Origin: Stieleria maiorica
Lineage (GTDB): Bacteria > Planctomycetota > Planctomycetia > Pirellulales > Pirellulaceae
Assembly (NCBI RefSeq): GCF_008035925.1
Contig: NZ_CP036264.1
Span: 1,337,409 to 1,401,408 of the forward strand
Length of the DNA stretch: 64,000 bases
Direction: 5' to 3'
Part shown: positions 4,533 to 27,202 of the stretch, one piece after another
How the letters are laid out: every line of letters begins with the position of its first letter
Numbering within the stretch: position 1 is the stretch's first letter
Notes under the pieces: model-generated
Database searches by the model: none
What the model saw: only the letters and a program-made list of their open reading frames with translations
What the model was told of the DNA's origin: nothing
Position numbers and translations under genes: made by a program

Positions 4533-5864
4533 TCAGACTTGGGGAACGTCGACAGGAGCGTCATCCGACGGGGACGATTCACCGGACCCCAGTGCGGCGG
4601 CCGTGGCGGAATCGGCGCTGGCGGGCAGCCAGCGCAGATCGATCACCAAGTGCTCGCCGTCGATCCCGGTGATCACGGCCGGGTTTTGTTTGGCCAGTTG
4701 ATCGCACCACTGCTGGGCCGAAAGGGTTTTATGACGGAGGTTGAGTTGCCGGGAGGGGAATTCCCAGCGTCCGCCATCGATCAGCCGCGCCGGTCGATCG
4801 GTGATCTGGCAGCCGGTGATCGAATCGTCGGCGGTCAAGCGAATCGCCATGCGTTCGGCGCGGCTCCGCAAGTTTTCTTCGCCGGTGTCGATCAGGACCG
4901 AGAACGGGCTGGGATTGGAGTCCGTCATCGCGGCGAGCGTCATCGCGACGATTCCGGCGGCCGCCTTGTGCGTGTTCCAGCGCGCGTCTTGCTGGATGGA
5001 ATCGATGAGTGTTTTCTTTCCCGCCAGGATCCCTGCCGCGGTTCCACCGGTCAGCGGACCGCCGGGCAGCAGGACCAGGTCAATTCCCGATTGAAGCAGC
5101 ACTTGGGCGCTGGGGATCGAATCGTGGGCTTGGCGGATCGTGCCGACGGGCAGGACCGCGATCGAGATCACGTCACGGCCTTTGAAGTCAATGGGCCCGA
5201 TCGGATGCATGCCGTCATCGGCCAAGATCACGCAGGCGTGGTCGATGCCGTCAAAGTCGCGTGGCTCGATCGCTTGGACTCCGCCGCATTCGCGCAGTGT
5301 CAGGCCTGCCAACGCATCGGGAAGCGGAGTGCCCGAAGGCAGCCGGATCGCCTGGCTGCGGTGCATCACGAATTCTCGCTGCTGTGCAAGCACCGTCAGC
5401 GATGCGATGGCGGCGTCCAGGCTGGTGGCCACCGCGATGGCGTGGCCGTCCAGGTCCAGCAACCGAGCCAGCGATCGACTGAGTTGTTGATTCAGATCGT
5501 GGTCGACACAGTCACCGCGGAGGACGTCGGCGCCGAGTTGCAGAACGGGATCCGAAACCGGAACCCCCGTCCCGGAACGCGCCAACAGGACGCCGCCGGC
5601 GTTGATGCAAGGCACGGCCAAGTCGGTTTGACGCTCGGTCCAACGCAGCATCGACTCGCGGCCCTGGTCGATCGCGCCGCGTGCGGTTTCGCTGGCGGTC
5701 TTGACGAGCGCGTCGATGCTGCGTGACGCATTCTCCGGCAAGTCGCGAAGCAGTTCGGCGGCCTGTGCCTTGACTCGGGCGATCGTTTCGGTGTCGCTCG
5801 CTTTTCGGGCCACGTCGGCAACGCCGTTTCGGATCGCTTCGATCGCCCAGGGTGGAAGTCTCAT
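4533..5864 (-). CDS. SelA-like (seleniumtransferase-related) protein lacking the PLP lysine
   Basis: 443 aa, close to SelA length. SelA-like landmarks appear in order: CINAGGVLLARSGTG (about 86-100; SelA has a VINATGVVLHTNLG-type motif), a coenzyme-domain region (HAIAVATSLDAAIASL) and IDLVLLPGGPLTGGTAAGIL followed by AGKK (261-284), matching the SelA segment around its SGDKLLGGPQAG motif. In this alignment the Schiff-base lysine of SGDK is replaced by proline (P270 in PGGP), so normal PLP chemistry is unlikely. I chose ATG 5864 because the longer upstream frame runs into the CPXCG gene. No selB, selD or tRNA-Sec was seen. It could be a pseudoenzyme or a repurposed fold-type I protein. Confidence 0.75.
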   Translation of the reverse strand: MRLPPWAIEAIRNGVADVARKASDTETIARVKAQAAELLRDLPENASRSIDALVKTASETARGAIDQGRESMLRWTERQTDLAVPCINAGGVLLARSGTGVPVSDPVLQLGADVLRGDCVDHDLNQQLSRSLARLLDLDGHAIAVATSLDAAIASLTVLAQQREFVMHRSQAIRLPSGTPLPDALAGLTLRECGGVQAIEPRDFDGIDHACVILADDGMHPIGPIDFKGRDVISIAVLPVGTIRQAHDSIPSAQVLLQSGIDLVLLPGGPLTGGTAAGILAGKKTLIDSIQQDARWNTHKAAAGIVAMTLAAMTDSNPSPFSVLIDTGEENLRSRAERMAIRLTADDSITGCQITDRPARLIDGGRWEFPSRQLNLRHKTLSAQQWCDQLAKQNPAVITGIDGEHLVIDLRWLPASADSATAAALGSGESSPSDDAPVDVPQV

Positions 5865-5899
5865 GAAAGCTGGCTCTTTGGGGAGGTCTTGGTGTCGGG

Positions 5900-6127
5900 T
5901 CAGAATCGGTCTTGTTCGGATTCGGCCCAGACGTGTGCCTGGGCGCCGTCCCAATCCACGTGAATCACGCTCGGGTTGCAGCAAACCGGGCAATCTTCGA
6001 CATAAGTTTGGGAATGTCCACCGGCCGGGTCCAGCGGGATCACGATCTCTTCGCCACAGCTGTCGCAAATGTAGCTGCCATCGTTGTCAAAGCATTCTTG
6101 CGTCGGGTCATGGTCTGATTCACTCAT
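5900..6127 (-). CDS. CPXCG-motif cysteine-rich zinc-ribbon protein
   Basis: 75 aa. Two knuckles are visible, C21-D-S-C24 and C46-P-V-C49 followed by C50, joined by the family hallmark DPAGGHSQTYVEDC. This matches the small bacterial Cys_rich_CPXG family, presumed to bind zinc, of unknown function. The gene sits 35 bases upstream of the SelA-like gene on the same strand, so the two are probably co-transcribed. The ATG at 6127 gives the expected family length. It is too short to appear as an independent long frame because the frame stays open far upstream. Confidence 0.88.
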   Translation of the reverse strand: MSESDHDPTQECFDNDGSYICDSCGEEIVIPLDPAGGHSQTYVEDCPVCCNPSVIHVDWDGAQAHVWAESEQDRF

Positions 6128-7408: not shown

Positions 7409-8002
7409 ATGAGCGTTTTGGTTACCCAACAGGCACCCGACTTCAAAGCACAGGCTGTGATGCCCGACGGCCAGTTCAAAGAGATCTCTTTGAGCGATTA
7501 CAAGGGCAAGTACGTGTTGCTGTTTTTCTGGCCGCTGGATTTCACTTTCGTCTGCCCGACGGAGATCATCGCGTTTTCCGATCGCGCGGCGGAGTTCGCC
7601 AAACTGGGCGTGCAAATCCTTGGCGTTTCGGTGGACAGCCATTTCAGCCACTTGGCCTGGACCAACACGCCCCGCAATGCGGGCGGGATCGGCAAGACCG
7701 AATACCCGTTGGTCGCCGATTTGAACAAGCAGATCGCGCGGGATTATGACGTCCTGCTCGACGGCGGCGTGGCGCTGCGTGGTTTGTTCCTGGTCGACAA
7801 GGAAGGCGTGGTGCGACACCAAGTGGTCAACGACCTGCCGCTGGGCCGAAGCGTCGACGAAGCCCTGCGAATGGTCAAAGCGCTTCAGTTCTTCGAGGAG
7901 AACGGCGAAGTCTGCCCGGCCAACTGGCAGGAAGGCGCCCGGACGATCAAGCCGAACGTCGATGACAGCAAAGAATTCTTCGGCGCCGAATACGCGGGCT
8001 GA
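7409..8002 (+). CDS. Typical 2-Cys peroxiredoxin (AhpC/Prx1 family)
   Basis: 197 aa. The peroxidatic cysteine is C49 in FVCPTE and the resolving cysteine is C169 in VCPANW; the arginine of the active site is probably R124 (ALRGLF). A GGIG motif (92-95) is present. It reduces hydrogen peroxide and organic hydroperoxides in the cytoplasm using a thioredoxin- or AhpF-like reductant, which is not encoded nearby. It is followed after 5 bases by a hypothetical gene in the same direction, suggesting co-transcription. Length and motifs are normal for the family. Confidence 0.95.
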
Positions 8003-8007
8003 TCGGA

Positions 8008-8667
8008 ATGTGGTTGACGGCCCCAAATCGAATCGGCGTCGCGGCATGGCAGATCGGCGATTCGATTTGGAGAATCGATGCCCGCGGCGAGCGCGACGCC
8101 GTGGCACTCGCGGTCGGCCAGGAACGCATCGCCCTGGTCGCTTCGGATGGCCAGGCGTTGCCGCGGCTGGACGAGCAATTTGTTCGCGACGACCAGTTGC
8201 ACCTGTCATTCCCGCAGACCGACGACAGCCAGTTCGGGTTTCGATTGGTCGTTCGCCCCGTCCCGCTTGAGGGATGTTGTGCCGACGGTTTCCGCATCGC
8301 GTTGGAGTTGTTGGTGTCGGTCCAGACCACGTTGTTGGATTCCCACCCCACGTTGGACCTGGTGTTGCCCGCACGCAGTGGGGCTCGCGATGAAGGGCAC
8401 TCCCCGTCGGGCAGCCGTGTCTACCACGCCGACAACGGCGATTTCGGTGCGGCGATCATCTTGGGCCCTCAAGACGTCGCGTCGTCCGGGGCGATCGATC
8501 AGCCCGACCAACAGCGATTGCGGCTGTTCGGCGAGTTTCTTGAAAAGGGTGTGATTCGGCGGGCGCGTCCTTGGTTGATCGTCGATCGCAGCAGTGGGGC
8601 GGTCGAAACCCGGTGGATCGGGGCGGCCATCGATGCCCTCGCGGAAAGTCCGCTGCCGCTCAACTAG
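8008..8667 (+). CDS. Hypothetical protein co-transcribed with peroxiredoxin
   Basis: 219 aa. It lacks a signal peptide, membrane segments or motifs I recognise. The N-terminus (MWLTAPNRIGVAAWQIGDSI) and the internal stretch ADNGDFGAAIILGPQDV suggest a soluble mixed alpha/beta protein with several beta strands. It begins 5 bases after the peroxiredoxin stop and has the same base composition, so it is probably a real gene. No function can be assigned. Confidence 0.6.
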   Translation: MWLTAPNRIGVAAWQIGDSIWRIDARGERDAVALAVGQERIALVASDGQALPRLDEQFVRDDQLHLSFPQTDDSQFGFRLVVRPVPLEGCCADGFRIALELLVSVQTTLLDSHPTLDLVLPARSGARDEGHSPSGSRVYHADNGDFGAAIILGPQDVASSGAIDQPDQQRLRLFGEFLEKGVIRRARPWLIVDRSSGAVETRWIGAAIDALAESPLPLN

Positions 8668-9028
8668 GCCGCTCGGTCGGGGCGATCGGTTGTCATGTTC
8701 GCCCGTGGCCTCTTGTTACGGGCCACTCTTCGGCCCATCGCCGGATCTTTGGGCCGCATGTGAGGGAAGTGCAGATTGGTGCGGCTGGATGACTTGGTGT
8801 CCCGGCGGACAAACAGACCGGTGAAATCCGCTGCTCAACGGCGCGCTTTTGCTGTTTCCGGTTGCGTGGTTTGCGTAAACTAAAGGGCTGATCGCTGAAC
8901 GGATAGTCCGTCTTTGACGGACGCATCGCCCGCTTCCTTCTCCTTTCTCATTCCGCCACGTGCTGCTTGCTTGTGAGCCCCGGTCGGCTCGCCGCGATGC
9001 CGCAGACCGTCTCGAGTCCATCTGGTTT
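8668..9028. other. Intergenic region before the giant-protein operon
   Basis: 361 bases without a supported gene. It should hold the promoter of the giant-protein pair. A perfect 7-bp stem with a TTT loop lies at 8906-8922 (GTCCGTC/GACGGAC). A GTG at 8960 is in frame with the downstream gene and would extend it by 23 residues. Confidence 0.5.
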
Positions 9029-12000
9029 ATGTATCGCACCGATTCGGCAACGAACCTCTTTTCGGCGGCACTGATGTCTGCCGGATCGATCGCTGCGTCG
9101 GTGGTCAGGTGTGTGGGGGTGATCGTTTGCTTCACGAGCGTTTGTTTGGTGGGCGGTGTTCCGAGCCACGCCCAGCCCCCGGGGACGTATCCGCCGGCGG
9201 AAATCCTGCGTCCCTCGCCGACGCCGGCCGAGTCTGGAAAGCTGCCGATCAAGGGGATGATGTTTCTGGACGTCTCGGAGAATGCGATCTATGCCCCGGG
9301 GATGAAGTACGAGCGGTATTTGGAACTCGAACGTGGCGGCACGAACCAAACGCGCCGTTATGTGTTCGACACGGTGAAGATCGACGGTCGGGTCGACGGT
9401 AATCGGGCGGAGTTGTCGGTGGAGGTGCGGGTGGCCGTCGACGCAACCGCCGATGAGACGATCGAGATCCCTTTGGCGATGGAGAATTTTCACCGCTTGG
9501 GTCCGGTCGAATTCTTTTCCGGCGCCGAAAACGGCAACAAACTGGCCGTGGCGGTCGACCAGGATTCGGGGGACTATGAATTGCTCGCCTCGGTCGCCAA
9601 GGAGACCATCGTCGGGTTCCGCATGCAGATGTCAGCTCGGGTCGAGACCGATGTGGTGCATGCGTTGGATTTTCGTTTGCCGCCTTCGGCGACGGAGATC
9701 AACCTGGTCAGCGATTCGCGCGACGTCGTCGGCGTGATCCCCAATCGCGACGACGAAGTCCTTGAAACCTCAGCCGACGAGGCGGGCCGCAGTCAATTCA
9801 AGGTGATCAGCAGCGGGGGCCGCTTCACACTACAGTGGGGCACGATGGATCGACCCGTTTCGGTCCCGTTGCTGGAAGCGACCAGTGGGATTTCCATGCA
9901 ATGGAATTCGCCCCAGGATCCGTTGTTGCAGAACGTGAAGATGACGGTGCGTGATTCCCGCGGACCGATCTCCAGTTTCAAACTCCGGATTCCGCCGGGG
10001 GCGTCGCTGCGCGATGATCCGAAGCTGATCACCAGCGGTCAATTCGGGCAGCAAGTCGAACTCTCCAAGCCCGACGCCGGTGACGCCGAGCTGTTTCAGG
10101 TCACGATCCCCAAGTTCGAACGTCGACAGAGCATTGTGTTGGAGTTTCGATTGGAGATCCCCAGCGATTCCCCGACGGCCAAGAATCCGCTTGCATTGCA
10201 AGTGCCCGTGGTTGCCGAAGCGCTTCGCAACCAGGGCACGATCAACATCACGACCGGAGCGGACTATCGTTTGCGGTGGCACCAGCGATCGTATGTCAAA
10301 AACACCACACCGGCCGCCGAGGATGAAACGGCGGTCGACCAGCGGAGTTATTCGTTTCAATTCATCCGTGGCGAGTTTACGTTGCCGATTTGGTTGGACG
10401 CCACCAAGCGTGAATTCCGCGTGTCCAGCGAGTGCGACATCGAACTGCGGGACAATTCCGCGAATCTTTCGATGGAAATCGAATCGATCGGAAATGGCAA
10501 TCGGTCTCAGTTGTTGAGCGTCGATCTGGCGGATTGGCAGGCGCCTCGAATCGAAAACGCGCGCACCGGTGCTCCGCTTCCCTGGTATGAATCGGACAAC
10601 TTGATCGAAATCGAAGTGAATTACACGGGCATGGAAGAAAGCATTCCCGTTTTGATCAAGGCGCGCCGCGGGCTCAGTGAGGCGTCGGCCGATCAAGCGG
10701 ATCGGCGTGTCGAATTGCCGGTGCCACGGATCGTCGGGTCGGGGGATCGTCGTGACCCGATCACGATTCAAGAAGCCATCGTTCGGCTCTCCGGCAAAGG
10801 CCGGCGTTCGTTCGTCGTCGACTTGGAGCGTTCGTCCCATTTAGAACGTTCGGCCGATGCCGAATCCGCGGCGCTTGAGCGAGTCGGCAACGGTGAACGG
10901 GCCACCGCGGATCCATCGCGAATCGGAGATACGACCCGCGTGTTCGCCGTGATGCCTCCCGAATCGGCCGCACGCATCGTCGGCCAATTGGTGGAACGCC
11001 CGCCCCGAATCAGCTTGGAACACACCGCCAACGTCAAATTGATCGGTGATCAATTGGTGACCACCGTCACGTGGCTGATCGAAACTCCCGTCGACTTGGA
11101 AGGACGGTTGCGGATCGCGATCCCCGAACCGACCCCCGGGGTTGCCGCCGATGCCGCATCGAACGTTGCTTCGTCGCAGGGTTCCGGTGCCGACGATGAG
11201 GGCGAGACGTCGGGGGCGACCGACGGGCAAAATGACAGCGCCATGAAACAATGGTCGGTCGAGGTCAATGACCGTGCGGCGCAGTTACAGGCCGTCACGT
11301 CCGACGCTTTGGCCGATCAACAGCAGGCGACCGGGACCAACACGGCCGGGCAGGCGTCGCAAAGCTTGCAATACGATCTCGTTTCCGATGCGCTCGCCGA
11401 CGGCAACATGGAAGTACGGTTCATCCACTCCGAATCCGTGACGTTTAACCCCGATGCCGCGGAGAAATTGGTTGAGATCGGGTTGCCCTATCCGATCGTC
11501 CAAGACATCACGCTGCGGGGAAAAATCGAACTGGAGTTGTTGGGCGGCGAGTCGCATGACATCACGCCGGCGGAGAAATCGCTGACCGATCAATTGGTCT
11601 TTCGTACGCTGCCGACAAAAACGGTTCCGCTGCGGATTTCACCGAGGGCGCCGGCGAAAAGCGAATTGCTGACAGGCAAGATCGTGGTGCGAACGGCGAT
11701 CAGCGAAATCTCCCAACACGATCAAGTGATCGCCAGTCTGGAAGGGACCGGCGAGTTTGAACTGGACTTGGAGTACGCCGATCAAACCGAGATCCAGGTC
11801 ACTCTGAACGGCGAACCCGCGGCGTACAAGATGGTCGGCGAGCGGCTGGTCGTGCGCGTCCCATCGGACATGCAGCAGCATCTGATCGATGTTCGGTTGT
11901 GGATCGATCGAACCGGTGGCGGCCTGTTTCAATCGATCAGGCCGCTGGCCCATGTCGGTCCCGGGACCGGCCAGCTGTTTTGGCAGTTGACGGTCCCGTC

Positions 12001-12610
12001 GGATTGCCACTTGGTTTGGGCGACGCCGTCGGTCGGCCGCGAAATGCAATGGGGATTCGACCGTTGGCGACTGATTCGCAGCCCGCTGATGACCGAGACC
12101 ACGCTGATCAATCGAGTCGCGACGGCACAGCCCGAGGCGATCGATTTGAGCCCGATGCCGACGGGCAATCGATACTTGTTCTCTTCGATGGACGACCGCT
12201 CGTTCCGGTCGATGGTCGGCACTCGAACCATCTTGTGGATGATCGTCGCCGGTGCCATCGTGTTCGTGGCCGCCGTGCTGACCTACATCCCCGCGACCCG
12301 CAATCCGTTTTCCGCGGTCGTCGCGATCGTCTGTTTTGCGGGGCTGTTGGCGGTCGCTCCGGACGCCGCCATCCTGGTCGGTCAAGTCACGATGTTGTCG
12401 TTGGTGCTGGTCATCGTGATGTTGGCGATTCGCAATCTGGTGCTGCCGACGCCGTCCAGAGTGTTGACCAGCACCCGCGAGACACGATTGGATTCATCAT
12501 CGCAAAGTCGTCGGCAACCGCCCGATTACCGACCGCCCAGCAGCATCGCCGTCACCCATTCGATCGGTCCGGAGGACGTCTCGAAGTCTGCCGACGAGGT
12601 GGCTTCATGA
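9029..12610 (+). CDS. Giant secreted, membrane-anchored protein A (unknown function)
   Basis: About 1193 aa from ATG 9029. The N-terminus has a signal-type hydrophobic segment (VVRCVGVIVCFTSVCLVGG, ending near SHAQ). A long beta-rich extracytoplasmic region follows (about 50-1060), with repeated patterns such as ETIEIPLAM and LDFRLPPSATEINLV. Three closely spaced membrane helices (about 1066-1140) and a polar tail (1141-1193) end the protein. The stop overlaps the next gene's start as ATGA, so proteins A and B are translationally coupled. Codon use and composition match the neighbours. Alternative starts are GTG 8960 and ATG 9074. I do not recognise a named family; similar large hypothetical proteins are known from planctomycete genomes. 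The architecture suggests an envelope-spanning or surface structural role. Confidence 0.8.
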   Translation: MYRTDSATNLFSAALMSAGSIAASVVRCVGVIVCFTSVCLVGGVPSHAQPPGTYPPAEILRPSPTPAESGKLPIKGMMFLDVSENAIYAPGMKYERYLELERGGTNQTRRYVFDTVKIDGRVDGNRAELSVEVRVAVDATADETIEIPLAMENFHRLGPVEFFSGAENGNKLAVAVDQDSGDYELLASVAKETIVGFRMQMSARVETDVVHALDFRLPPSATEINLVSDSRDVVGVIPNRDDEVLETSADEAGRSQFKVISSGGRFTLQWGTMDRPVSVPLLEATSGISMQWNSPQDPLLQNVKMTVRDSRGPISSFKLRIPPGASLRDDPKLITSGQFGQQVELSKPDAGDAELFQVTIPKFERRQSIVLEFRLEIPSDSPTAKNPLALQVPVVAEALRNQGTINITTGADYRLRWHQRSYVKNTTPAAEDETAVDQRSYSFQFIRGEFTLPIWLDATKREFRVSSECDIELRDNSANLSMEIESIGNGNRSQLLSVDLADWQAPRIENARTGAPLPWYESDNLIEIEVNYTGMEESIPVLIKARRGLSEASADQADRRVELPVPRIVGSGDRRDPITIQEAIVRLSGKGRRSFVVDLERSSHLERSADAESAALERVGNGERATADPSRIGDTTRVFAVMPPESAARIVGQLVERPPRISLEHTANVKLIGDQLVTTVTWLIETPVDLEGRLRIAIPEPTPGVAADAASNVASSQGSGADDEGETSGATDGQNDSAMKQWSVEVNDRAAQLQAVTSDALADQQQATGTNTAGQASQSLQYDLVSDALADGNMEVRFIHSESVTFNPDAAEKLVEIGLPYPIVQDITLRGKIELELLGGESHDITPAEKSLTDQLVFRTLPTKTVPLRISPRAPAKSELLTGKIVVRTAISEISQHDQVIASLEGTGEFELDLEYADQTEIQVTLNGEPAAYKMVGERLVVRVPSDMQQHLIDVRLWIDRTGGGLFQSIRPLAHVGPGTGQLFWQLTVPSDCHLVWATPSVGREMQWGFDRWRLIRSPLMTETTLINRVATAQPEAIDLSPMPTGNRYLFSSMDDRSFRSMVGTRTILWMIVAGAIVFVAAVLTYIPATRNPFSAVVAIVCFAGLLAVAPDAAILVGQVTMLSLVLVIVMLAIRNLVLPTPSRVLTSTRETRLDSSSQSRRQPPDYRPPSSIAVTHSIGPEDVSKSADEVAS

Positions 12611-15600
12611 CCCCGGCGACAACCGACAACTTCGTCTGTCGCGGAGGGTGTGACGCGGCAGCGTTGCTGGGCCTGGCGATGGCTCGCGGCCCGTTCGCCG
12701 TCGGCCGGATCGGCGTTGCGCGGCGGCTGATGTTGACGTTGATCGCGGTCGGCTGTGCGCTGCTGGCGACCGGACAGTCGCGCGGCCAACAAGTCCCCGA
12801 AACGCCACCGGCGGTCGAGCAACCCGCCGATGGACCTCAAGGAGACACCGATCGACCCTCCGCCGAGCCGGACGCTGCGGGGCCGGACGCCGCAGGGCCC
12901 AAAGACGATCCTTCGTCAGCCAGCGAGCCCTCAGCCAGCGAGCCCTCAGCCAGCGAGCCGATGGACAAGGCTGCGGAAGACAAGGCTGCGGAAGACAAGG
13001 CTGCGGAAGACAAGGCTGCGGAAGACGAGTCCCCGACCACCGAGTCCGCCGAGGGCGAATCATCGGCGGCCGGGGTCAGCGATGCGGTGTCGAGCGATGA
13101 CGCAGCGGCACGTCAGGATCGTTTGACGTTGCCGCTGCCGTTGCGTGATCGTGACGGTCGACCGCTGCGTCCGATCGGGGTTTTCCTTTCACAAATCGTC
13201 GACTTGGTGCCGGCAGATTTTCGTGCCGTTTCGATCCGCGATTTGCAGCAGGCGATCGGCAACGGTGCCGAGCGGTTTGCCGATTCGAACCAGGCTCGTT
13301 TGGTCAGCGGGTTCTATGACATTCGGCTGGATGAGAATCTGTTGGTCAGCGAAGGCAGCAAGTTGGTGCTGGAGCACAAGCCTCGCCCGATCATTCGTCG
13401 AAAGTTGGGGCAGGTCAATTTGGCGATCACCGGTTCACCCGGCGGTCTTCGATCACCGCTTTCGGTCGGTCGGGGAAATCTTCCCAGGTTGGAAATCGAT
13501 TTTTCGGGTGAGTTGGTGGCGGTCGTTCCGGGGACGCCGTCAGCGGACGGGTTTACCGCGACTGTCGAACAATCGCTCGGTTCGGCCGGCATCGCAGCAG
13601 AGGATCAACGCGAACCGGACAGCGCGGCCGGCGCCTTGGACGGATGGTCACAATCCGAGATTCGTTTCGGATGGACGTTGCGAAGCCAATCGGTGGGCGC
13701 GGCAAAACGGTTCGACTTGCGTTTGCCCCGGACCGCGCAGACGCGACTGGTCATTTCCACGCCCAGCGACATCGTTCTGGAGTCCAAGCAAGGGGTATTG
13801 GTCGAGCGTCCCGGGCCGCCGCCGGATGCGGATGTGCAAACGCGAACAGGCGACATTCGTTGGTACGTGTTGGAAGCCGGCGGACTGAACCGGCTGGAGA
13901 TCGATGCCCGCCGAAGGTCTGATGGCGAAGCGAACCAGCCACTGTTCATCCGACGCGAATCAAAGCAGTACGAGGTGGACTTGTCGGGCGTGTCGTGGAT
14001 CCACCGGATGACGTTGCAGTTTCCACGCCAACGCAATCGGCTTCGTCTGCGCTTGCCGCAGGGAACCGTGACGGCGATTCGAGTCAATTCCATCGAGGCA
14101 CCGTATCAGGTGTTGCGGCGCGAGGATGGCCAATCGTTGATCGACGTCGATCTACCCGGCGGATTGGTCGGTGTCATCGACTCCGTCCCGGCCGCAGCAC
14201 CGGCAGGCGGGTTGCGGAACGAGCCGGCGTCGGAGCTGTTGACGTTGACGATCGAGGGGACGTCGAATTGGAATCTCAGCGACGGCATTTGTGAATTGCC
14301 CTCGGTGACACCCGACGAGCCGAACGTGTTGTGGACCGAAGCGTCCACGCAAACCATTGTCGCGGTGATGGACCCCTTGGAAGTCGCAAAGTGGGACTTG
14401 CCACCGACATGGCGGCAATCGATTCAGACACCCACGCGGGCTGGTGAGACGCTGTTGATCGCCGACGGTCCGCCACCCCAAAACGCACAGCCCGATGCGA
14501 TCTGGTCGCAGCTGATGCTGATCGAAAAAGAAGAGCGGTTCATCGAAGCGGTTTGGACGCGGTTGCGTGTGCAACAGGCTCCGACCCCGGAGGTGCGCTC
14601 GAACAGCCGCATCCGTTGTCGGTTGTTGCAGAATCACCAGTCTCCGTTTCAGATGGACGTTAATCCAGATTGGACCGTCGACTCGGTCACCGTGGTCGGT
14701 TCGGGGCGCAGAATCACCGTGCCTGTGGATGCCAATCGTTGGGTGATTTGGCCGACGCCCAGCGAAGCGGCCCAAGCGACGTTCGAAGTCGAGGTGATCG
14801 CGCGAAAGAATCTGCCCAGGAATCGCAACCGTTTGACGATGGCTTCGACCTGGATCGTTCGACCGCTGCAGCATGTGGGAGAACATGTGGTCTCGATTCA
14901 ACCGCCACCGCTGCGCCGTTGGGACGGCAATTCGGTGATGCTGCAGGGGCGGTTCGAATCATCCACGATGGACGAGGAATCGATCGCATTTTTTCAACCG
15001 GATTCGGAAACGTTGTTGATCCGCAGCCCGACCGGCGAAATCCCCGAGGTCACGTTGGAGCCCGTCGATGATTCCTTCGGGGTCGCGCTGCGGCACGTGA
15101 TCGAAACCGAAGGCAGCGATGTCTCCGAAACCATCGTCGTCCGGGCCGAGACGACGCAACCGATTTCAGAACTCTCGGTGCTGACCGGCAACTCCCGACA
15201 GGAAGAATTCAGTTGGTCGTTGCGGCGGACAGATCAGTCGGCAACGGTCAGCTTGCCCAGTTCCAGCGTGCAGCGGGCGTCGCCTGATCCGCTGGGGACC
15301 TACGTCATCACGCTGGAAGGCCGTGACTTGCGGCAATTCGAATTGGTCGGACGCCGGTTCTTTCCGGTCCAAGACCGGTTGACCCTGTCGCTGCCGAGTG
15401 TGCGTCGAACTCGAGGGCAAACCGCCGAGGTCAGGATCGACGCCAGCTGGGAGATTTCCGAGATTCCCCCGGGAGTTCAACTGGTTCCCGGAACCGAGGC
15501 AAACGGTTCGACGTCGGTCGCCGCTGGTCAACCACAATACCTTCGATACGAACCGCTGCTCCGTCCCGAGATTCGATTGCGACGGGCGCAGCCCGAGACG

Positions 15601-18600
15601 GCGGCCTGTCTGATTTGGAACCAGCGATTCGAAGTGGTCGCCAACAGCCGCAATGAAGACTTGTTCCATTTGACCGCCGAGGTGTCCACGCGCAAGCCGA
15701 TTCATCTTTCCTTCGATCACGAACTGGAAATCGTGTCTGTGTCCAGGAACGGGGTGCGCCAAGCTGCCGATCGAACCGAGGTGGGCGAGATCTGGATCGA
15801 TCCCGAGCGGCCGAGCGATCAAATCGCGGTGTTGATGCGGCGGCGTCACGCATCTAGCGACTGGTTTCGACGATGCCGGATCCCGCGTGTCGAAGTGGAA
15901 GGCAATGTCATTCGGCAACAGGTGGCGTATCAAACCGGCGCGGGGACATTGTTACTGCACCGTGCCACCGATTCACTCGCCGGCGAGTCGGGCGAATTGG
16001 GCCAGGGGACGGTGTTGATTTTGGTCGCGCGTGACGTGGCGATCGGCCTGGGGTGGCTGGTCGCGACGGTCGTCTTTTTTATGGCGTGGTCGATCGCACG
16101 CTGGTTTCCGTTGGGAGTCCACGGTTTGTTCGTTCTGACCGTGCTTGCGATCAGTGGGGCCGTCATCTGGTGGCCGGCGCAAGCGGCCATCATCGGCTGG
16201 ATCGCCGTGCCGCTGTCGGCCGCGGCACTGTTGCACGTGGTGATGGCCGATCGACGGACGACCAGGGTGACCGGCAGTGGTGCCGGCGGATCGCTGCGGC
16301 TGGACGACACCCGATCACAACGCAACGCCCGCGACCGATCGGCGGACTTCTCCGTGTCGGTTCCGCATTCGGTGCTGTTGTTCGCGATCGGATGGTCGGC
16401 GACGATGGGCGGCGGCCTGGCGGCCCAGGATTCCATCGGCGACGATGCTCGGCGAGAGTCGGACGGCGGGGGAATGGTCGAAACGGCAGACAACGATCCG
16501 ATCGAATTGTTGGTGCCGCTGGATCCCGACTATGTGCCGGTCGGCGACAAGGTGTACATGTCACGAGCGGATTATGAATCCATTCGATCGGACGTCGATC
16601 CAGACCGTCCGGTGGACGCACAATTCCAATCGGCGGAATACCGTGTCGTTCTGACTCCGCCACGCGACGCGGCCGGTTCCATCGCCGCCGAGATTCAAGC
16701 GGACTATCAAATCCAGCTGGTGCGCGAATCGACGCAGGTGCGATTGCCCGTCCGTGCCGATCTGTTGCGCCGGATCGAATTGGTATCGGGCGGTGAGACG
16801 CAAATCATCCGTTTCACCGTCGACGAACGCGGGACGGTGACCGCCGCGATCCCGTCGAGTCGTCAGAGTCTGTTGCGGTTGACCTATTTGCCGTCGGTGT
16901 TGACGCTCGGTATCGAACCGGGCATGGCGGTCGGCGGCGACGGGCCGGCTTGGGACGAACGCGATTCCGAACCACCGGGTGCCGATCCGGGGCCGGCCGA
17001 TCCGGGCCTGTCCGGCGGCGACGTTCGGCTGGACGCGACATCGGGAATGGCAACCACCGTCGTTCGGTTGGCGATCCCCGCGATCCATGCCGCCAAGTTG
17101 ATTGTCGAAGCACCACGCGAGATCCAAGTCGAATCGCTCGGTGATCCCTTGGGCCGATCGCTGTTCCGTTCCGAATTGGGACGCTACGAAGCGGACTTGG
17201 GACCGGTCCGCGAGTTGGCGATTCGATGTCGCGCCGTCAAACGTCCCGGCCAATCGGCCGCACAAACCCTGCGCCGGGCATATCGGATTTCTGCCGGGAT
17301 CGAATCCACGGTCGTCGAGTGTGAGATCACACCGGAAGACAGCCTGCGAGAAGGTGACACGTTGCAGCTGACCATTCTCGGCGGGCCGCCACCGAGTCTG
17401 ACGAGTATCGGTTGGGCAATGGAAGAATCGGAACTGGCCGACAGCTCCGATCGTCCTCCCGGTGCGAACGCTTCACTGGTGAGCGGGGTTTATCGATTCG
17501 AAAAACAATCCAGCGTCGACACTCCGATCCGTTTGCTGTGGCGGTTGCCTTCGGTGCTGAACGATCCGACGTCGACCGAAGACAGCAAGACGATGCCGAT
17601 CCCCGAGGTGTTTTCCTCGGTCGCCCAACGCTGGGCGGCCACCTTGTTTGCCATCGAATCGGCAGCCTCGATTCGCGTCAGCGAGTTGGCCAAGGGCTCC
17701 CAACCCGCCAGCGAAGACGAGTTTTTGGCGGCGTGGCGAGGCTATCCCGGAAGAATTCAACGGGCATTTGTCATTCAGGACGTGTTCCCATCCTTCGTGC
17801 TTTTGCAAGACAAATTTCCCACGCCCACCGCTCGGTTGAATCATCGTTTGCACGTCAAGGAGACGAAGATGGAGTTGCGGTTGAAGGCCGACCTGGTCGA
17901 CCTGAGGCCGAGTCTTCAACGCATCCAAATCACCATCCCCCCGCGGTTCCGCTTGGTCAGTTGTTTGGTCAATGGTGAACCCATCACTTCCATGACGCCG
18001 CTGACGGTCGAGACCCCGTCGGGGGTTCGCTCACAGGTGCCGATCGGTGACAATCGAATCAACGGGGCCACTCAGATCGAACTGTTGGCCGAAAGTCGCG
18101 TGCCGATCCGGGGGCGGACCATGCTTCCCCGGTTCGCGATTTCATCCGATGGCGAGATTCGCGAAACCTATCGCATCACACGTGAACGATCGCTGGACGT
18201 CCGGATGACGCGATCCGATGACCCGGCGCCGGGGAATGAGAACGAGCCCGGCACTTGGAAACCGGCCACACTGACGCAGGACGATTTGCTCGCCGGGCGG
18301 ATTCCGGTCGTGTACGCTGAATTCAGTGGGACGCCAACGGATGATGACCCGATCGTGGTCAGCCGCCGCGCCTCCGGTTCGGTCTTTACCTGTGATCAGA
18401 TCACCAGGATGCGGTACGCGGACGGGCAATGGTTCTGCGACACGTTGCTGGAATTGCCCGGCAGAACGATCCCCGATTATGTGGATCTGACACTGCCGAC
18501 ACGTTGGGCGGCCGATTTGCAGGTCAGCGGCGCCAGTGTTTGGGGAAAGCGACAATCCAGCGATGATGTGGTCACCGTCGTTCGCGTCGCGGTGCCCGCC

Positions 18601-20166
18601 CAAGTCGTTCGATCGGCTCGTCGCGGCGAAGACGTGCGGCGCGTTCAGGTCACTGGCAGTTTAAAGAACCGAGACCAGGTGCGTGTCAGTGTTCCTGCGG
18701 TGACTGTCTTGGGAGCCAACTTGCGTGATCATCTGGTCGCGGTGCCGGGGCAATTGACGACCCAGGCGATTCAATGGCGTGCCCAGTCGGTCCGGTCATT
18801 AAAAAACGATCCAAACGTGTTTGCGTCCTTCCAGAACGAGGTCGAATCACCCGAACGCTATTCGTTCTATTCACCGATCGAATCGAATTGGTCGGTCGAG
18901 TTGGAACCGCTGTTGCAAGCGACGGTCAACCCGGTGGCACTGTGCTGCGATGCAAGGGTGTTTCTTGACAGCGATCACGTCCTGGTCATCCAGCGATTTG
19001 ACATCTTGCCGGAAACCCGAAATGAAGTCACCGTCGCTTTGCCCGTTGGCGCCACCTGTATCGGGATTTGGTCCGCCGGGCGCGAAGTCGATTTAAGTGA
19101 GTTGCCGCCGGGCCGCGGCAGCTCGGGCGATGTCTCGGATGACGATCAGGCCGACGGCCGGGACGACGACACGTCCAGGCTTCCCCAAACGTCGCGGTTG
19201 CGTGTCCCCTTGGCCTACAGTCGGCTGCCCCAATCGTTGGAGGTGCTGGTCGAAGTCCCGGTGGCGGGGCGAGCGATCACGAGTTACTTGAGCGAACTGG
19301 TCGACGTGCCGACCCGCGATCTATGGGTCACGTTCTATCAAACGCCGCTGGTCGGTCAGAATCGACGAATCACGCTGGAACGGCAAGACGGTGGCATGGA
19401 TCAGGTTCCGGACGACTTCGTGCGGCAACGATCGGCGCGGGCCTTTGCACTGGCGCAAAGTGTCGTGACTGCGATCGATCGCTCACGCGACATGCTGGCT
19501 GAACGAAGCGACGAAGAAATCAAACGTTGGTTGCTGCCATGGATCGCGCGCTATCAAGCGATTGCCAGTCGCAGCGGGCACCCGTTTCGGATGGTCCCGA
19601 CGTCCGGTCAGGACGCGGTCGGCGTCGCGGCGACGGCCACCGACGAAACAACAGAGCGTCGGTCGGACGAAGCGAATCGAGAACAGGACGCAACCGCCAG
19701 ACCGGCGGCGCCCGACGTTGATCCCGACATGACGAGGCGGTGGCAGGCGTATGATCGGCAGTTGTTGCAATTGGCGGGGCGTTTCCTGCAATCCAATCCC
19801 AGGCTTCCGCAAACCCTCTTCGCGCAACATCGGTTTTCGGAGTTCGAAGTGGCCTCGATTGTCCGTTTGGACACGTTTGCCGAGGGGCCGGTCCTGGTGC
19901 AATCGTTCACGCAGCGCGAGTCGCTTCAGGACTTGCTGGTCAACGTGATCACGCTGGTCACGTTCGGATTGGCCGTGATCCTGCTGTGGCCCTTTCGTGG
20001 CCGATTCCAAACCTGGATTCATGAACCTGCGGTCTGGTTGTTCGTCGTCGGTGTCCTGGGCCTGTTCCTGATCCCGATTCCCTTGGCCGTGACCCTGATG
20101 GTCATCGCGGTGACCGTCCCGCTGATCAATCGAATGAAATCCAAGTCGGTCCCGACGGGAATGTAA
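12607..20166 (+). CDS. Giant membrane protein B, apparent two-module fusion
   Basis: 2519 aa, starting at ATG 12607 inside protein A's stop (ATGA). An N-terminal hydrophobic signal (about 35-58) is followed by acidic low complexity with SASEP x3 and DKAAE x4 repeats. A first beta-rich module (about 170-1130) ends in about three membrane helices (1137-1210). After a loop, another signal-like hydrophobic segment (about 1254-1275, ending GGLAAQ) starts a second module (1290-2430), which ends in three further helices (2442-2513). Both halves thus repeat the plan of protein A. Both modules share an RLP...A..LVI..P-type motif (FDLRLPRTAQTRLVISTP; VRLAIPAIHAAKLIVEAP). I see no catalytic motif. An envelope or surface scaffold role is inference. 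Confidence 0.85.
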   Translation: MTPATTDNFVCRGGCDAAALLGLAMARGPFAVGRIGVARRLMLTLIAVGCALLATGQSRGQQVPETPPAVEQPADGPQGDTDRPSAEPDAAGPDAAGPKDDPSSASEPSASEPSASEPMDKAAEDKAAEDKAAEDKAAEDESPTTESAEGESSAAGVSDAVSSDDAAARQDRLTLPLPLRDRDGRPLRPIGVFLSQIVDLVPADFRAVSIRDLQQAIGNGAERFADSNQARLVSGFYDIRLDENLLVSEGSKLVLEHKPRPIIRRKLGQVNLAITGSPGGLRSPLSVGRGNLPRLEIDFSGELVAVVPGTPSADGFTATVEQSLGSAGIAAEDQREPDSAAGALDGWSQSEIRFGWTLRSQSVGAAKRFDLRLPRTAQTRLVISTPSDIVLESKQGVLVERPGPPPDADVQTRTGDIRWYVLEAGGLNRLEIDARRRSDGEANQPLFIRRESKQYEVDLSGVSWIHRMTLQFPRQRNRLRLRLPQGTVTAIRVNSIEAPYQVLRREDGQSLIDVDLPGGLVGVIDSVPAAAPAGGLRNEPASELLTLTIEGTSNWNLSDGICELPSVTPDEPNVLWTEASTQTIVAVMDPLEVAKWDLPPTWRQSIQTPTRAGETLLIADGPPPQNAQPDAIWSQLMLIEKEERFIEAVWTRLRVQQAPTPEVRSNSRIRCRLLQNHQSPFQMDVNPDWTVDSVTVVGSGRRITVPVDANRWVIWPTPSEAAQATFEVEVIARKNLPRNRNRLTMASTWIVRPLQHVGEHVVSIQPPPLRRWDGNSVMLQGRFESSTMDEESIAFFQPDSETLLIRSPTGEIPEVTLEPVDDSFGVALRHVIETEGSDVSETIVVRAETTQPISELSVLTGNSRQEEFSWSLRRTDQSATVSLPSSSVQRASPDPLGTYVITLEGRDLRQFELVGRRFFPVQDRLTLSLPSVRRTRGQTAEVRIDASWEISEIPPGVQLVPGTEANGSTSVAAGQPQYLRYEPLLRPEIRLRRAQPETAACLIWNQRFEVVANSRNEDLFHLTAEVSTRKPIHLSFDHELEIVSVSRNGVRQAADRTEVGEIWIDPERPSDQIAVLMRRRHASSDWFRRCRIPRVEVEGNVIRQQVAYQTGAGTLLLHRATDSLAGESGELGQGTVLILVARDVAIGLGWLVATVVFFMAWSIARWFPLGVHGLFVLTVLAISGAVIWWPAQAAIIGWIAVPLSAAALLHVVMADRRTTRVTGSGAGGSLRLDDTRSQRNARDRSADFSVSVPHSVLLFAIGWSATMGGGLAAQDSIGDDARRESDGGGMVETADNDPIELLVPLDPDYVPVGDKVYMSRADYESIRSDVDPDRPVDAQFQSAEYRVVLTPPRDAAGSIAAEIQADYQIQLVRESTQVRLPVRADLLRRIELVSGGETQIIRFTVDERGTVTAAIPSSRQSLLRLTYLPSVLTLGIEPGMAVGGDGPAWDERDSEPPGADPGPADPGLSGGDVRLDATSGMATTVVRLAIPAIHAAKLIVEAPREIQVESLGDPLGRSLFRSELGRYEADLGPVRELAIRCRAVKRPGQSAAQTLRRAYRISAGIESTVVECEITPEDSLREGDTLQLTILGGPPPSLTSIGWAMEESELADSSDRPPGANASLVSGVYRFEKQSSVDTPIRLLWRLPSVLNDPTSTEDSKTMPIPEVFSSVAQRWAATLFAIESAASIRVSELAKGSQPASEDEFLAAWRGYPGRIQRAFVIQDVFPSFVLLQDKFPTPTARLNHRLHVKETKMELRLKADLVDLRPSLQRIQITIPPRFRLVSCLVNGEPITSMTPLTVETPSGVRSQVPIGDNRINGATQIELLAESRVPIRGRTMLPRFAISSDGEIRETYRITRERSLDVRMTRSDDPAPGNENEPGTWKPATLTQDDLLAGRIPVVYAEFSGTPTDDDPIVVSRRASGSVFTCDQITRMRYADGQWFCDTLLELPGRTIPDYVDLTLPTRWAADLQVSGASVWGKRQSSDDVVTVVRVAVPAQVVRSARRGEDVRRVQVTGSLKNRDQVRVSVPAVTVLGANLRDHLVAVPGQLTTQAIQWRAQSVRSLKNDPNVFASFQNEVESPERYSFYSPIESNWSVELEPLLQATVNPVALCCDARVFLDSDHVLVIQRFDILPETRNEVTVALPVGATCIGIWSAGREVDLSELPPGRGSSGDVSDDDQADGRDDDTSRLPQTSRLRVPLAYSRLPQSLEVLVEVPVAGRAITSYLSELVDVPTRDLWVTFYQTPLVGQNRRITLERQDGGMDQVPDDFVRQRSARAFALAQSVVTAIDRSRDMLAERSDEEIKRWLLPWIARYQAIASRSGHPFRMVPTSGQDAVGVAATATDETTERRSDEANREQDATARPAAPDVDPDMTRRWQAYDRQLLQLAGRFLQSNPRLPQTLFAQHRFSEFEVASIVRLDTFAEGPVLVQSFTQRESLQDLLVNVITLVTFGLAVILLWPFRGRFQTWIHEPAVWLFVVGVLGLFLIPIPLAVTLMVIAVTVPLINRMKSKSVPTGM
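12918..13026 (+). repeat. Two in-frame 15-bp tandem repeats inside giant protein B
   Basis: Three copies of AGCGAGCCCTCAGCC-type units encode SASEP. They are followed by four near-identical units of GACAAGGCTGCGGAA encoding DKAAE. All units are 15 bp, so copy-number change by slippage would keep the frame. Confidence 0.9.
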
Positions 20167-23132: not shown

Positions 23133-26849
<3,717 letters not shown>

Positions 26850-27202
26850 CGCTGAATCGCTTGCTAAGTTTCGATGTTTGATTGGCCGCGAGCATACAGA
26901 TTCGCCCGCAAGAGAGTCAGATTGGCAGCGCACCGCCCCCCGCGTCTAGAGCAGCCAATTTCGGGCCAAATAGACGAAAGTGCGGTTCGGTGCCACCTCA
27001 AAGGGGCACCCCGGATCCGATTCGGAGAAGCTAAATGCTTTGGGGGGCTTAGGTTAGGTTTTTTGGTTGATCAGGTCAACGGCGATCGAAAATGCGGCTC
27101 ACAAATGCCGGTCGGGGTTGTTTACGAGACTAACGAATTTTTCGTGCTGACGGTAAACTGTCGCTTCCGAACTCGTTTCCTGCTCCTCGTGCCCTCCCAT
27201 TC
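26850..27202. other. Divergent promoter region, secA/rpiB
   Basis: 353 bases between divergent starts. No gene, hairpin or recognised operator was found; it should contain both promoters. Confidence 0.5.

Follow-up and report, generated by a model that had tools for sequence, protein, structure and literature searches.

Overlapping genes for two giant, putatively envelope-anchored proteins built from three versions of one module in Stieleria maiorica

The window, a stretch of 64,000 nucleotides from the genome of Stieleria maiorica (9.89 Mb, single contig), carries two giant genes, A and B, which form a conserved overlapping pair and encode three modules of one kind, one in A and two in B (B1 and B2). 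This anatomy is regarded as virtually certain. Models of A and of B2 predict that each module consists of some five beta domains in tandem, of the M1-aminopeptidase-N-domain/ribophorin-I type, and this assignment of domain type is considered very probable. The explanation put forward here, a non-catalytic, membrane-anchored scaffold or docking platform in the periplasm, is tentative, with a probability of about 0.45.

The sequence-only reading of this DNA had proposed adjacent giants of 1193 and 2519 aa overlapping as ATGA, which was borne out by the open frames (Table 1) and by the junction sequence, GCTTCATGACC, with its ATGA overlap. An in-frame GTG lies at 8960, 23 codons 5′ of the A start, and is also present in four close relatives; the start of A is uncertain. 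The nearest relatives are Rhodopirellula sp. JC639, with an A protein 90% identical to window A, and Rhodopirellula sp. SM50, TBK1r, and Stieleria sedimenti, with 84-85% identity. Measured against one relative (L002), dN/dS was 0.11 for A and 0.17 for B. No promoter-like sites were found near the operon ends, and terminator-like sites numbered three upstream and zero downstream of the operon, with 0.9 expected in each. The linker following the signal segment of B (window 12790-13113) appeared by eye to be of low complexity, with short repeats (SEPSA and KAAED units). Alignments of B to relatives often began only past this linker.

Table 1. Features of the A-B pair, with positions in the window and the basis of each assignment
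Feature	Position	Strand	Description and basis
Gene A	9029..12610	+	1193 aa, one module and C-terminal membrane helices; stop-free frame
A signal-peptide-like segment	9086..9172	+	residues 20-48 (about 20-50); family-mean hydropathy
A domain 1, predicted M1-aminopeptidase-N-domain-like	9344..9850	+	residues 106-274; AlphaFold; VIA Z about 11 over 108-273
A domain 2, predicted fold as domain 1	9851..10411	+	residues 275-461; VIA Z about 11.6 over 275-459
A domain 3, same predicted strand pattern	10397..10864	+	residues about 457-612; model secondary structure only, without a VIA row of its own
A domain 4 (predicted)	10946..11638	+	residues about 640-870; one VIA row (6s7o_E, 659-1068) and strand pattern
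A domain 5 (predicted), best single match	11642..12223	+	residues 872-1065; VIA Z 12.9, rmsd 3.0, 142 residues to 1z1w (880-1065)
A C-terminal helices	12224..12442	+	residues 1066-1138; hydropathy and AlphaFold
ATGA overlap, A stop/B start	12607..12610	+	sequence
Gene B	12607..20166	+	2519 aa, two modules; stop-free frame
B signal-peptide-like segment	12700..12789	+	residues 32-61; family-mean hydropathy
B module 1 (B1)	13114..16005	+	residues 170-1133; profile match to A, E 2e-10, 807 columns
B mid membrane helices	16012..16254	+	residues 1136-1216; family-mean hydropathy
B internal signal/anchor-like hydrophobic segment, before module 2	16345..16431	+	residues 1247-1275; family mean
B module 2 (B2)	16456..19392	+	residues 1284-2262, five predicted tandem beta domains; AlphaFold, VIA, profile matches to B1 and A
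Helical insert after B module 2	19408..19572	+	residues 2268-2322; model helices 985-1009 and 1019-1039
B C-terminal membrane helices	19918..20145	+	residues 2438-2513; family-mean hydropathy

Using A as a single-sequence query, a match was found in 75 of 119 Pirellulaceae genomes. Twenty-six Pirellulaceae loci were compared, comprising six from the search that gave the nearest relatives (L002-L007) and 20 of the 75 genomes, mostly those with better matches (L039-L058). All loci entering the pair counts were chosen because A had been found, and the start of B in relatives was taken as the start codon nearest the A stop. Two loci were left out, L008 being truncated and L102 because greedy picking of open reading frames had hidden its A. 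B adjoined A in all 26 loci, as 25 separate pairs and one fusion. The overlap was four bases long in 24 of the 25 unfused pairs and one base long in the remaining one, and in the fusion (L041, genome G087) A and B form a single frame of 3468 codons that keeps the signal-like segment of B inside. Together, the four-base overlap and the natural fusion suggest that both products act together in one place.

The count was extended to 38 loci (23 of the 26, the window, and 14 new ones, L074-L087, among which L083 holds the paralogous pair described below), all of which carried the pair, a fusion, or a paralogous pair. Among 16 further A loci (L091-L100 and L103-L108), 15 had a long open frame directly downstream of A, five of these frames being cut by a contig end; the exception, L105 (G473), has an A-type gene without adjacent B, followed by a gene that we take, by eye, to be rhomboid-like. 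B profiles (E <= 1e-3) matched the downstream frame in 13 of these 15 loci and in 11 of the 13 loci L074-L087 other than L083; the other frames were called B from their position and length or from BLAST clusters. Given its presence in all 26 Pirellulaceae loci and in 15 of the 16 A loci added from the class, the pair is not the rare single-strain artefact against which the earlier reading had cautioned. It is kept across several families of the class Planctomycetia, in which a profile of the A end matched 91 of 198 genomes; the B2 profile matched 43 of 118 genomes searched, and a profile of the paralogues, to which A-type genes also respond, 98 of 148. A probe for the A end (residues 880-1145) was run on a draw of 246 genomes from the phylum, 16 of them from the class; among the matches listed, 14 genomes matched, all from the class, and none of the about 230 genomes outside it, a count that rests on the order of listing.

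Module comparisons were carried out by hhalign using 26-member family profiles. Single-sequence BLASTP among A, B1, and B2 gave nothing significant (best E 0.054). By profile, A and B1 aligned over 807 columns (probability 96.8, E 2e-10), B1 and B2 over 771 columns (probability 96.6, E 5e-10), and A and B2 over 457 columns (probability 93.5, E 2e-7), all three alignments being roughly collinear. Following removal of insert columns, the E value for A and B1 rose from 2e-10 to 3.5e-5 over 481 columns. Scores from match columns only were 57.4 (A-B1), 111.0 (B1-B2), and 69.9 (A-B2), against control maxima of 34.0 for reversed profiles (n = 6), 21.6 for global column shuffles (n = 15), and 40.3 for shuffles of 20-column blocks (n = 15); the margin of A-B1 over the best block shuffle, 57.4 versus 40.3, is modest. 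The three strings that had been picked out by eye as parallel segments are found at position 215 of A and at 369 and 1486 of B, and each of the three profile-profile alignments brings them into register.

Single domains were compared in a 15 by 15 profile matrix, with the domain borders of B1 set from the alignment and not from a model. Scores averaged 25.7 for same-position pairs across modules, 20.2 for different-position pairs, and 19.7 within modules, and 105 reversed controls had a mean of 15.3 and a maximum of 23.8. The first domains of B1 and B2 were the outlier of the matrix (61.5). Many same-position pairs fall within the control range, and a one-to-one correspondence of domains between modules is not proven by sequence.

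The same arrangement recurs in a paralogous pair of other planctomycetes, found at three loci (L083, L101, L113), in which a one-module protein of 1131-1197 aa (Da) is followed by a two-module protein of 2696-2719 aa (Db). Da matched the two halves of Db with E 3.7e-43 and 6.4e-43. The homology with A-B is clear (A-Da E 1.2e-24 over 943 columns; B-Db E 2.6e-23 over 1708 columns; B2-Da E 6.6e-17), but Da-Db form a separate sequence group, and in genomes holding both, for example G332 and G394, the paralogous pair lies elsewhere than A-B. B1 was weakly matched to the paralogues, with a probability of 80 per cent for Da and 1 per cent for C, the 2383-aa protein of locus L109. Paralogue profiles contained three sequences each, and the shuffled controls apply to the A/B1/B2 comparisons only. 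A one-module gene directly before a two-module gene is thus common to A-B and Da-Db, and given their homology this plan is most simply older than the split of the two systems. The claim of three versions of one module, with B repeating the plan twice, holds up on profile scores above controls, the matching architecture of two AlphaFold models, and the strongly homologous paralogous pair.

A further paralogue lies in the same genome as the window, at L109 (G000:C1:1147000-1166000), where a gene for a sigma-70-family factor is followed by an overlapping VWA/YfbK_C gene (1168 aa) and then by the two-module C (2383 aa). Both modules of C are related to A (A-C E 5e-10; Da-C E 9e-27 and 5e-23). This order is repeated in L089, according to Pfam, and in L111 by eye only; the sigma factors of such loci are presumably ECF-like. 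By analogy, the modules of A and B might sense the extracytoplasmic state and signal to regulators, as the sigma-factor-linked paralogue might. We consider such an envelope sensor improbable: the L109 group differs from A-B in having a VWA protein as the partner and a sigma factor present, none of the nine window neighbours scanned is a sigma factor or VWA protein, and no signalling domain was found in A or B.

That last result comes from Pfam, in which neither protein matched any family at E <= 10. Across 26 A and 18 B2 family members, Pfam gave scattered matches to other families, each in one or two members (best E 0.001). The Pfam model of the M1 N-domain had no sequence match in A, B, or family members. 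Searches by sequence of NCBIfam and the PDB revealed no relative of A or B; an NCBIfam amylase match (E 0.0054) was discarded as lying well below the cut-off of its model, and PDB profile matches (E 0.11-0.67) were confined to the first 116 positions of the B profile.

Structures were predicted using AlphaFold for A (26 sequences; pLDDT 72.7, pTM 0.32) and for B 1284-2440 (35 sequences; pLDDT 78.4, pTM 0.43). As pTM is low, the models speak for single domains and not for the arrangement between them. In the A model, a strand-strand-helix cap is followed by five repeats and three C-terminal helices, each repeat opening with a long strand pair (111/126, 282/299, 463/477, 660/675, and 881/895). 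The B2 model has a short N-terminal stretch with little strand, a helix, five repeats (strand pairs 56/77, 272/284, 458/471, 644/658, and 827/841 in model numbering), and a helical insert. Whole-model TM-scores were all low, and single domains were therefore judged by VIA-align. Domains 1, 2, and 5 of A and the first domain of B2 matched N-domains of M1/M61 peptidases with Z 11-13 over 142-167 residues, the B2 domain reaching Z 11.9 to an M1 chain; apart from the stretches with the chain matches given below, the remaining A and B2 domains were assigned by strand pattern alone. The two parts modelled, A and B2, thus have related predicted folds, and not the unrelated ones that would have spoken against a shared module.

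Matches to a second group of structures were found among chains that we take to be ribophorin I/Ost1 (RPN1), namely 8b6l_O, 6ezn_A, 8agb_E, and 6s7o_E. Domains 1 and 2 of A matched 6ezn_A (VIA Z 12.3 over 107-462), A 659-1068 matched 6s7o_E in one row (Z 11.5), and B2 model residues 456-639 matched 8agb_E (Z 11.2). The two-domain matches of A to oligosaccharyltransferase (OST) chains had an rmsd of 13-17, meaning that only single domains superpose and the two-domain arrangement does not. The Ost1 domains resemble the N-domain of LTA4H. Using Foldseek, 8b6l_O, a chain of the Sec61-TRAP-OSTA translocon, ranked first for A (E 1.5e-8), followed by an integrin alpha chain (E 8.4e-8); for B2, integrin chains were on top (E 2.5e-8) and the OST chain 6s7o_E came sixth (E 6.6e-7). 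Integrin matches of A and B2 had a TM of 0.08-0.17 and an rmsd of 18 and more, and the integrin and complement rows, of low TM, were read as probably generic matches between multi-domain beta proteins.

Substrate handling of the ribophorin I type was weighed on these data: the arrays would stand next to the Sec translocon, holding or guiding newly exported polypeptides, a task that Ost1/ribophorin I performs within the OST complex. The top Foldseek rank of 8b6l_O for A and the OST matches to A 107-462 and, in one row, 659-1068 point that way, as does the shared plan of a signal segment, tandem beta domains of one fold on the lumenal or periplasmic side, and a membrane helix after them, with no catalytic site. 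According to PMC7226087, Ost1 has two similar beta domains and binds glycosylated peptides. However, A-B have about five domains per module and fifteen per pair instead of two, multi-helix anchors, a plan repeated twice in B, no sequence-family match, and no STT3 partner; integrin chains outrank OST chains for B2, SecA (23133-26933) is encoded on the opposite strand, and a common fold is no proof of function. No STT3/PglB (PF02516) was found in the window genome by a profile that was positive in 4 of 14 control genomes. Ribophorin I (PF04597) had zero matches there at E <= 1, a weak negative since the profile was above its cut-off in 0 of the 14 control genomes. Membership of an oligosaccharyltransferase was rejected on the lack of STT3 and of a PF04597 match, and the broader idea of ribophorin-like handling is, like the sensor, improbable.

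The relation to M1/M61 peptidases (1z1w, LTA4H, APN, 8j9c) is also limited to the fold of their N-terminal beta domain, which single domains of A and B2 share; unlike these enzymes, A-B have no catalytic domain or HExxH, form tandem arrays, and are, by their hydrophobic segments, probably membrane anchored. In keeping with the earlier statement that no catalytic motif is recognisable, the HExxH, GxMEN, and C.EQ motifs were absent from window A and B. Within the family, none of 26 B members has HExxH, and of 26 A members one does (L047), its E missing from the position where it would be expected. An M1 peptidase was rejected for want of the HExxH...E zinc site and GxMEN, and an alpha-2-macroglobulin for want of the thioester C.EQ in both proteins. 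A-B are classed as neither ribophorin I nor an M1 peptidase. An enzyme or inhibitor whose active site has escaped recognition would agree with the W, P, R, and H residues that do not vary among 26 aligned members in the membrane-proximal region of A, but is highly improbable in view of the missing M1 zinc and thioester motifs and of the fact that the structure-matched domains match the non-catalytic part of M1 enzymes.

Membrane segments were located by hydropathy averaged over 26 family members. By this measure the helix cluster closing A spans residues 1058-1143, and AlphaFold placed helices at 1066-1086, 1093-1109, and 1111-1138. The signal segments and beta-rich parts that had been described for A and B were recovered; the triple helix end that had been described with them is clear only for A, by AlphaFold, and likely in the middle of B, while the end of B appears to have two to three helices. 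Aligned alone by profile, the membrane ends gave probabilities of 7, 9, and 2 per cent, which does not establish the helix bundles as homologous. The hydrophobic segment at B 1247-1275 exceeded the threshold, per sequence, in 20 of 26 members, window B not being among these. It might act as a signal anchor within B, ahead of the second half, which would place the second module outside as well.

Long, repeated beta domains with membrane anchors at module ends would also suit a tether, in which the arrays link the inner membrane to the outer membrane or a wall polymer and set the width of a large periplasm; that no match was found outside the class in the sampled genomes, among the matches listed, points the same way. 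Yet no wall-binding domain was found by Pfam in A, B, or family members, and a similar helix bundle ends every module, leaving no end obviously meant for another membrane. A tether is rather unlikely. Very improbable is a bolder version, a periplasm-filling machine specific to the planctomycete class, in which fifteen ribophorin-I-like domains organise the envelope and share ancestry with the beta domains of eukaryotic and archaeal ribophorin I.

Surrounding genes were also inspected. Upstream of A lie a peroxiredoxin (7409-8002) and a frame of 219 aa without Pfam match (8008-8667), relatives of which (33-52% identity) are found just upstream of A in seven loci. An inositol-monophosphatase-like family precedes A in 12 of 38 loci, the window not included (Pfam checked for L078:2454-3248), and upstream genes differ between clades. 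Further upstream, window 4533-6068 has a partial Pfam match to SelA (selenocysteine synthase-like). Downstream follow a 268-aa frame without named family and, both on the opposite strand, genes for a Kdo transferase and SecA. The SecA frame, of about 1240-1266 aa, has two separate SecA_SW stretches and is presumably longer than usual SecA. No neighbour is constant enough for a function to be named from the surroundings.

In favour of the proposed non-catalytic scaffold or docking platform stand the three related modules, the paralogous pair with its like arrangement, the common strand pattern and the structure matches of the two models, the missing catalytic motifs, the dN/dS values, and the conservation of the overlapping pair; against it count the lack of a constant neighbour and the one A locus (L105) with no B beside it. 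A and B would form an envelope complex of planctomycetes, its two subunits synthesised together through coupled translation and exported by their N-terminal signal segments. Helix bundles after each module would anchor both proteins in a membrane, most simply the cytoplasmic one, and each module would take the shape of a rod or arc, with about five predicted beta domains, none of them catalytic, so that one A and one B could present about fifteen of them in the periplasm. As a passive multivalent platform, the complex might dock and space envelope or exported partners at the membrane, without enzymatic activity. The sequence itself shows the gene overlap, the related modules, the conservation, and the lack of the catalytic motifs looked for, and the fold and number of domains in A and B2 are predicted. 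Coupled translation, topology, the 1:1 complex, the periplasmic side, and the scaffold role are what we infer, and the envelope scaffold or compartment-spanning machine of the sequence-only reading may be taken in the same spirit.

The fold of the single domain is known; a coupled giant pair of such arrays is, as far as our searches show, undescribed in the literature searched. Predicted non-catalytic arrays of M1-N/ribophorin-I-like domains are of interest in bacteria often discussed for eukaryote-like features, and fold alone is not kinship. Here and in many genomes of the class, about 11 kb are spent on a pair for which the searches found no name, domain model, or structure. A planctomycete laboratory strain with transposon genetics exists, according to PMC10632474, and the pair offers a defined, testable target, with domain borders usable for structural work. 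Conservation, gene overlap, and paralogous copies make the A-B pair a candidate for a basic part of the planctomycete envelope.
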